From Crambe crambe (Eukaryota > Porifera > Demospongiae > Poecilosclerida > Crambeidae), in NCBI GenBank assembly GCA_963924555.1, contig OZ004597.1, positions 5,715,904-5,779,903 of the forward strand: a DNA stretch of 64,000 nt, written 5' to 3'. Shown in pieces: positions 102 through 63,711 of this stretch (the stretch's first letter is position 1; every line of letters begins with the position of its first letter). Position numbers and translations under genes: made by a program. The notes under the pieces were generated by a model. It worked only from the letters and a program-made list of their open reading frames with translations. It did no database searches and had not been told where the DNA came from.

Positions 102-213
102 CAGTTACTGGATCGAGGGCTTGCAGTACCCAAGAGGCTTCTCTCCTGATGATATCTACTCCTCCCCTCATCCTCACATACACTCCAAGTGAGGAGGTAA
201 GGTCAAGCACTTC
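102..213 (-). CDS. Last exon in window: end of bacterial-type domain after Rhs
   Basis: A 112-bp exon, phase 0 in and phase 1 out, starting [18 protein letters not shown] and ending [13 protein letters not shown] at the donor ACTG|GTAAG. It continues the domain of exon 2569-2799. The pattern of an aromatic strand followed by LDPVTG is the form I know from Planctomycetes-like bacterial surface proteins, where it follows the same neighbour domain. The next exon is left of the window. Confidence 0.75.

Positions 214-63711: not shown

Follow-up and report, generated by a model that had tools for sequence, protein, structure and literature searches.

A Sponge Adhesion GPCR Gene Predicted to Carry a Large SRCR Array and a Bacterial-Type CARDB–Rhs–DUF7619 Block

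Introduction

Teneurins are type II membrane proteins that consist of a TTR domain, an FN plug, NHL, a YD shell, and a toxin-like end. Aspartates of the Rhs core act in self-cleavage, in line with the title of structure 8uxt. Adhesion GPCRs self-cleave in the GAIN domain, at a GPS tripeptide that follows the rule H-x-T/S, and the tethered peptide activates the receptor once the N-terminal fragment has been pulled or removed. SRCR domains bind polyanionic and microbial ligands.

As far as the available text of the following papers goes, CARDB and similar repeats occur upstream of bacterial YD shells (PMC6425310), and sponges, like all diploblast genomes, lack teneurin (review, PMC6428715; for sponges also PMC6425310 and PMC13018210), so that the sponge latrophilin-like receptor Aq715659 must function without it (PMC6428715). 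Together with Aq712029, this receptor belongs to the SRCR adhesion GPCRs reported earlier from Amphimedon, which combine SRCR and 7TM as here; the available text of that report mentions no CARDB, Rhs, or DUF7619 (PMC4302439). In the available text on Aplysina aerophoba, microbial signals are followed by a rise of one SRCR gene and one adhesion GPCR gene, both other than the one considered here (PMC6208332).

Here we analyze a stretch of 64,000 nucleotides of the sponge Crambe crambe (the window; C20:5715904-5779903, C20 being contig OZ004597.1). The window very probably holds most of one sponge adhesion GPCR gene in which a bacterial block has been captured and whose product would act as a self-cleaving tethered-peptide receptor. 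The predicted order in the gene is ~68 SRCR domains, Ig/HYR-like domains, CARDB, a complete Rhs/YD shell, and DUF7619, followed by GAIN, GPS, and 7TM.

Materials and Methods

Exons were chained on the minus strand with an HMM self-trained on the window's own long frames; the model bars internal stops, and an intron-length penalty was added to avoid joining everything as one gene. All gene models rest on genomic DNA sequence alone. Genome searches covered 143 Mb, and SRCR domains were counted with a locally built SRCR profile over a 204-kb stretch. In the CARDB–Rhs protein search, 7,990 candidates were scored and 640 matches obtained, the best 120 of which were considered. For the neighboring paralogue D, the anchored model dropped some CARDB and Rhs codons, and the domain scans used other models of this copy; the anchors of its C-terminal exons were set by visual inspection of the reading frames, i.e., the C-terminal model was guided rather than blind.

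Results

Gene structure in the window

The HMM gave a single chain of 9,584 aa on the minus strand of the window, and a variant that allows gene starts, stops, and flanks gave 9,540 aa, close to the ~9,500 residues of the initial annotation. Since stops are barred inside the model, an open chain is no proof by itself, and its support comes from the domain content and the regular exon/intron structure: 160 of 188 introns are in phase 1 (a count that includes some zero-length exons, a script artefact), and the SRCR exons alternate between ~159 and ~168 bp. The in-phase chain from SRCR to a post-Rhs domain, traced in the initial annotation, is borne out by these domains, phases, and regular exon pairs. 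Exons at both edges of the window (102–213 and 63553–63711) belong to the model, and the gene extends past both ends.

The SRCR array occupies positions 16935–63711 (window coordinates; this and all the features below lie on the minus strand), with most domains encoded by two exons of ~159 and ~168 bp separated by phase-1 introns. The SRCR profile finds 59 full domains, as claimed earlier, and one partial domain; at the ORF level, the window comprises 59 N-halves and 56 C-halves. With this profile, SRCR matches were absent from the plus strand throughout the 204 kb. Upstream of the window, nine more domains (9 N-halves and 9 C-halves) follow, up to window coordinate 86688, which brings the array to ~68 domains. 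The domains score above the Pfam cut-off, in accordance with the SRCR superfamily. The start codon is not fixed; a search for a signal peptide upstream gave one weak candidate, at window coordinate 98814, which was left unused.

Directly after the array, behind a 119-bp intron, stands the first Ig/HYR-like (Big_13-like) exon (16564–16815), followed by a second (16177–16455) and by an exon with HYR_4C (31.3 bits, cut-off 27) and a further beta-sandwich (14870–15927). The CARDB repeat region (104.7 bits) covers several exons at 9092–14535; the main one, 9770–12632, is 2,863 bp long, and the model is less certain about the small ones that lie between 12713 and 14535. The N-terminal and middle exons of the Rhs/YD shell lie at 5989–8847, as indicated by profile matches (RHS_repeat 78.6 bits), the exon model, and structure prediction. 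The end of the Rhs core, with two DP motifs, lies at 4281–5678 (exons 5564–5678, 5390–5499, 5038–5260, and 4281–4448). It is followed in the exon model by a hydrophobic post-Rhs segment on two exons (3516–3871) and by the DUF7619 region (102–2799, exons 2569–2799 and 102–213). The HYR/CARDB modules of the initial annotation are thus found as Pfam matches in the window frames, its complete Rhs core is confirmed by the presence of both DP motifs, and its post-Rhs domain can be named as DUF7619. Exon borders past the Rhs core and in the tail vary between gene models.

A run of exactly 2,500 N (C20:5713404-5715903, window −2499 to 0) adjoins the low end of the window. The exons that come after 102–213 fall in this run, which hides the EGF, Thr-rich, and HRM exons of the window copy.

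Receptor part of the gene

Past the N run, the window copy continues on the same strand (window ~−2,500 to −8,050) with GAIN exons, a GPS that contains CLSEHATSFAVLV, and seven transmembrane segments, and its tail ends in ENKLAYL. An independent Pfam search of the genome placed 7tm_2 at C20:5709757-5710134, on the minus strand, within this tail. Because of the N run, the EGF, Thr-rich, and HRM parts were read in paralogue D (C20:5.63-5.67 Mb, plus strand), which lies ~50 kb from the window copy (copy E below) and contains no N.

The spliced model of D has the order SRCR-HYR-CARDB-Rhs-DUF7619-EGF-Thr-rich-HRM-GAIN-GPS-7TM. In the Pfam scan, SRCR (91.7 bits), CARDB (129.7 bits), RHS_repeat (102.6 bits), DUF7619 (54.5 bits), GAIN (56.5 bits, cut-off 26.5), and GPS (26.4 bits, cut-off 22.5) are above their cut-offs, as is 7tm_2 (160.2 bits over profile positions 3–250); HRM (23.1, cut-off 26.2), EGF_2 (19.6, cut-off 22.1), Big_13, and HYR_4C stay below theirs. 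From DUF7619 to GPS, by way of EGF, Thr-rich, HRM, and GAIN, neighboring exons are separated by 49–277 bp. The GPS cleavage tripeptide is HAT, within CLSKHATSFAVLV in D and CLSEHATSFAVLV in E. From HYR to DUF7619 and from GAIN to 7TM, the exons of the window copy correspond to those of D one by one. Seven D exons have no partner in E: six of them (5663730–5665669) lie where E has N, and the seventh, a 72-bp exon before the tail (5671057–5671128), is doubtful. With 7tm_2, GAIN, and a GPS containing HAT, D shows the features of class B2, and by its domains the protein is an adhesion GPCR, for which coupling and autoproteolysis are predicted.

Rhs/YD shell

In the TIGR scan, TIGR01643 scores above its cut-off (90.7 bits), and TIGR03696 reaches 28.7 against a cut-off of 32.5 in a scanned model that stopped short of the second DP motif. 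A sequence search of the structure database with the Rhs part gave bacterial Rhs as the best match (8h8a, RhsP, 3.4e-36) and the bacterial teneurin-like protein 9ifo next (2.1e-20). Up to E = 10, no metazoan teneurin stands among 27 sequence matches. The window exon 5989–6771, taken with 13 homologues, is predicted to form a run of beta hairpins, i.e., a piece of a YD shell (pLDDT 93). In Foldseek, Rhs structures rank at the top for this piece (7q97, 8.6e-16), 9ifo is at rank 14 (5.5e-12), and human teneurin-4 is at rank 19 (3.9e-11), with Tc components also among the matches; the TM-scores of ~0.2–0.6 are modest, as expected for a cut piece of a closed shell. In sequence ranking and in predicted fold, bacterial Rhs stands nearer to the shell than teneurin does. 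At rank 46 of the fold search stands the mosquito salivary gland surface protein SGS1 (8fjp), another animal protein that partly has this fold.

Copies B, D, and E have both DP motifs at the core end and the Arg that precedes the first; in copy C, only the first was seen, and in copy A neither pattern was found (two loci scanned). The second DPTG is followed by Gln instead of the Leu of the bacterial consensus, which makes Rhs self-cleavage uncertain. No toxin family was found after the Rhs core in the Pfam and TIGR scans; the hydrophobic segment and DUF7619 are there instead. A bacterial polymorphic Rhs toxin was accordingly rejected, as these scans revealed no C-terminal toxin domain.

Five copies on one contig

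CARDB and RHS_repeat together match five loci genome-wide, all on C20 within ~470 kb (copies A–E), and a more distant query of RHS and DUF7619 also matches only these five. Among the matches listed, SRCR lies 5′ of CARDB–Rhs on the same strand in all five, HYR exons stand between SRCR and CARDB in all five, and 7TM lies 3′ of Rhs on the same strand in four (B, C, D, and E). The SRCR–HYR intron is ~80 bp in B, ~144 bp in C, ~144 bp in D (144 bp in its spliced model), and 119 bp in E; in A, the nearest recognized SRCR end is ~1 kb from HYR. In A, C, D, and E, the reading frame of the first HYR exon, followed back to the nearest stop, has no Met ahead of the exon; B has one in-frame Met upstream of HYR, without an obvious signal peptide.

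The 10-kb stretch just 3′ of the Rhs matches of copy A contains DUF7619, EGF, a Thr-rich stalk, and one hydrophobic segment and gave no HRM, GAIN, or 7TM match. Copy A may be a single-pass form that is truncated, lipid-anchored, or decayed. In its hydrophobic segment (L051 4512-4253; C20 ~5250.8–5251.0k, minus strand), an in-frame TAG is followed by a basic stretch that keeps the frame.

Copies B and C (C20:5375k-5547k) and copies D and E (C20:5573k-5803k) are arranged as inverted tail-to-tail pairs, with several SRCR matches at mirrored places of B and C scoring identically. Stray 7TM fragments of the same subfamily occur on the minus strand at C20:5693.5k (F) and C20:5454k (G). Fragment F contains a stop and gave no match to either the post-Rhs or the HRM query in the searched stretch, and it was treated as a broken piece; fragment G is known from 7TM matches alone.

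The main CARDB exon is open in all five copies. Between A and the others, dS is ~1.25 and dN/dS is 0.15–0.16; among B–E, the values are 0.03–0.09 and 0.17–0.25, respectively. For the main Rhs exon, dN/dS is 0.16–0.17 between A and the others and, on few changes, 0.11–0.32 among B–E. The CARDB and Rhs exons are under purifying selection. Between D and E, the eight 7TM exons differ by 4 replacement and 11 silent changes in 247 codons; the GAIN and GPS exons, which are moderately constrained, by 21 and 16 in 275 codons; one post-Rhs exon by 6 and 2; and the exon of the cytoplasmic tail, which also has gaps, by 12 and 1 in 105 codons. The counts for GAIN/GPS, the post-Rhs exon, and the tail indicate that constraint is uneven along the receptor.

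Relatives of the CARDB–Rhs–DUF7619 block

Among the matches listed in the CARDB–Rhs search, 22 CARDB ORFs of ~1,200 aa (P0001–P0022) come first, followed by bacterial-type Rhs proteins. All 22 share an end motif, which is also found in the window frame; after it, the sequence diverges in 20 and the ORF stops in two, a pattern as for a shared splice donor. On another contig, the CARDB exons of P0001 and P0002 are nearly identical to those of D and A, respectively. These two are probably this species again; the other 20 are not. In the CARDB tree, A-type sequences form a clade with other contigs, and B–E form a clade with P0001 only. The search of viral contigs with the CARDB exon gave nothing.

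In the other 98 matches listed, the named ones being bacterial, CARDB and RHS occur together in 25 (CARDB first in 25/25), RHS and DUF7619 in 21 (RHS first in 21/21), and all three in 12, with the same order in 12/12; in a second set, 6 of 92 proteins have all three domains, and five of these six keep the order. This order in bacterial-type proteins suggests that the whole cassette was probably captured, and capture as a block is probably the simplest account of its origin. Proteins such as P0026 (Pirellulaceae) and P0030 (Verrucomicrobiales) have the same domain order as the sponge gene but, unlike it, no SRCR, GAIN, or 7TM in their Pfam lists. P0121, a single frame of 4,043 aa, is HYR-CARDB-Rhs-DUF7619-EGF with 30–42% identity per segment to the sponge gene, from which it differs in having no SRCR or 7TM and a TSP1-like end below the cut-off; by this example, the module would seem to occur outside the receptor as well.

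Relatives of the receptor part

With the HRM-to-7TM part of D as a query, the best PDB match was latrophilin-3 (8jmt, 6.6e-59). The protein search with the receptor part found four proteins, three of them named and from the demosponges Halichondria panicea and Geodia barretti; the nearest named ones are adhesion GPCRs with 43% (H. panicea) and 42% (G. barretti) identity. The L3-like protein P0215 of H. panicea (1,001 aa) consists of Sushi, one SRCR, HRM, GAIN, GPS, and 7TM and is 43% identical over the whole D query; unlike the sponge gene studied here, it has no CARDB, Rhs, or DUF7619 match. The Halichondria and Amphimedon SRCR adhesion GPCRs indicate that the receptor chassis is of a known sponge kind. 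The new parts are the CARDB–Rhs–DUF7619 insert and the 68-domain SRCR array.

Latrophilin (ADGRL) shares HRM-GAIN-GPS-7TM with D, ADGRL3 being the best match by PDB ranking alone, but D has neither the latrophilin lectin domain (RBL) nor olfactomedin from its last SRCR to its end (Pfam). Teneurin and bacterial teneurin-like proteins share the YD shell fold with the sponge gene, whose EGF part matches teneurin-type EGF models below their cut-offs; in contrast to teneurin, NHL is absent from the Pfam scan of D, and the C-terminus carries 7TM instead. A teneurin orthologue is ruled out by the domain content, in which the YD shell alone is common to both, and by the sequence ranking.

The search with the Rhs-to-7TM region found RHS_repeat and 7tm_2 together in none of 93 proteins, an adhesion GPCR of Dysidea avara included, and the four receptors among the 93 had no Rhs match by BLAST; the proteins covered were of ~2,300–7,400 aa, and a longer annotated relative would have been missed. 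The literature matches listed contained no combination of Rhs with SRCR or with an adhesion GPCR; bioRxiv and the majority of subscription journals lay outside the scope. A term search of the receptor review PMC12716839 found no SRCR, Rhs, or CARDB in the main text, and one of the available text of the review PMC13197933 found no sponge, SRCR, or Rhs. Within this scope, the combination remains as unfamiliar as it had been to the initial annotation. The reading of the locus as one animal gene in which SRCR is fused to a bacterial-type CARDB–Rhs protein, encoding a surface receptor, stands; the adhesion GPCR end, which lies outside the window, and the five-copy cluster had been missed.

Discussion

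The chain comes from an RNA-free model that favors joining, and two or three neighboring genes, for an SRCR protein, a CARDB–Rhs protein, and an adhesion GPCR, might have been read as one. The three kinds of protein are known separately, P0121 has the HYR-to-EGF part without SRCR or 7TM, and copy B offers an in-frame Met ahead of HYR. We nevertheless consider such a misreading unlikely, because the introns between SRCR and HYR are only ~80–144 bp in B–E, the gaps from DUF7619 to GPS in D are 49–277 bp, and order and strand are alike across the copies. A promoter and start of its own for the CARDB–Rhs part is likewise disfavored: introns of this length in four copies leave little room for a separate promoter, and A, C, D, and E have no start Met. 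A bacterial contaminant or an assembly artefact, which the bacterial-type domains and the N run of 2,500 bases beside the window might bring to mind, is extremely improbable; GT-AG introns split the Rhs and CARDB parts, there are five copies, P0001 and P0002 repeat the CARDB exons of D and A almost exactly on another contig, and the exon-end motif recurs in 22/22 related ORFs. Contamination was rejected on the introns and the copy number.

It is also conceivable, though we regard it as rather doubtful, that the SRCR–CARDB–Rhs ectodomain is the stable unit, naturally single-pass as in copy A, and that B–E acquired their 7TM tail recently, as a replacement within a single lineage. A Thr-rich stalk and one hydrophobic segment form the end of copy A, sequences from other contigs fall in the A-type CARDB clade while that of B–E consists of this genome's copies and P0001, and B–E are young (dS 0.03–0.09). 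On the other hand, conservation of the 7TM exons between D and E is high (4 replacements in 247 codons), Halichondria has an SRCR adhesion GPCR whose HRM-7TM part is similar, and TAG breaks the segment of copy A.

We therefore prefer the reading as one adhesion GPCR with a captured block, for which the following scheme can be proposed. A bacterial surface protein of the CARDB–Rhs–DUF7619 type would have been acquired in one piece, combined with an SRCR ectodomain, and attached to an HRM-GAIN adhesion GPCR of the sponge. Both the SRCR array and the Rhs shell would point outward and bind ligands, be it on a microbial surface, the matrix, or a neighboring cell; the array would catch, and the CARDB and Ig domains would give reach. 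As in teneurin, the Rhs shell may provide a rigid module for adhesion or dimerization rather than carry a toxin, since no toxin domain follows the core. The receptor would cut itself in GAIN between HA and T, and a pull on the very long N-terminal fragment would uncover the tethered peptide TSFAVLV.. and start G-protein signalling. From what is known of these families and from the Aplysina response, we infer a mechanosensitive recognition receptor with the ligands, cleavage, and signalling just outlined.

A more far-reaching idea, which we put forward tentatively, is that the sponge has fused a teneurin-like YD shell, of bacterial descent and independent of teneurin, with a latrophilin-type receptor. 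Latrophilin binds teneurin in trans, whereas here the YD shell is in the same chain. The product would be a self-contained sensor of ~11,000–12,000 residues (the sum from the domain scan, the SRCR count, and the protein search) with two potential self-cleaving modules, the Rhs core and GAIN, for the recognition of microbes or self. If so, one sponge chain would hold both partners that are kept apart in bilaterian animals. Already on the preferred reading, a sponge adhesion GPCR bears a complete Rhs/YD shell that apparently goes back to its own bacterial capture. This is an independent case of the same pairing and tests why YD shells come together with adhesion GPCRs. The cluster of five genes, which is under purifying selection, also shows how an entire bacterial-type surface protein of several domains became the ectodomain of an animal receptor. 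The receptor would also be an exceptionally large GPCR; ADGRV1 is the largest known human GPCR, and mammalian ADGRV1 (P0212) has 6,328 aa.

Several further observations concern the surroundings of the cluster and other contigs. A split SRCR N-half lies 3′ of the gene's tail on the minus strand (window −9835 to −9964; C20 ~5705.9–5706.1k) and is perhaps the remains or the start of another SRCR gene. Relatives of the 7TM part occur on C1, with up to 83% identity per exon, and on C10, with no SRCR, Rhs, or CARDB nearby among the matches listed; the Rhs and CARDB searches gave nothing on C1. Also on C1, on the minus strand, two intronless open frames of 890 and 2,194 aa (C1:7173565-7174530 and 7203892-7204854) match the whole HYR query at 37%. 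On C21 (331514–560289), four 7tm_2 matches cover nearly the full profile in uninterrupted frames of 776–969 aa; these receptors are intron-poor within an intron-rich genome.
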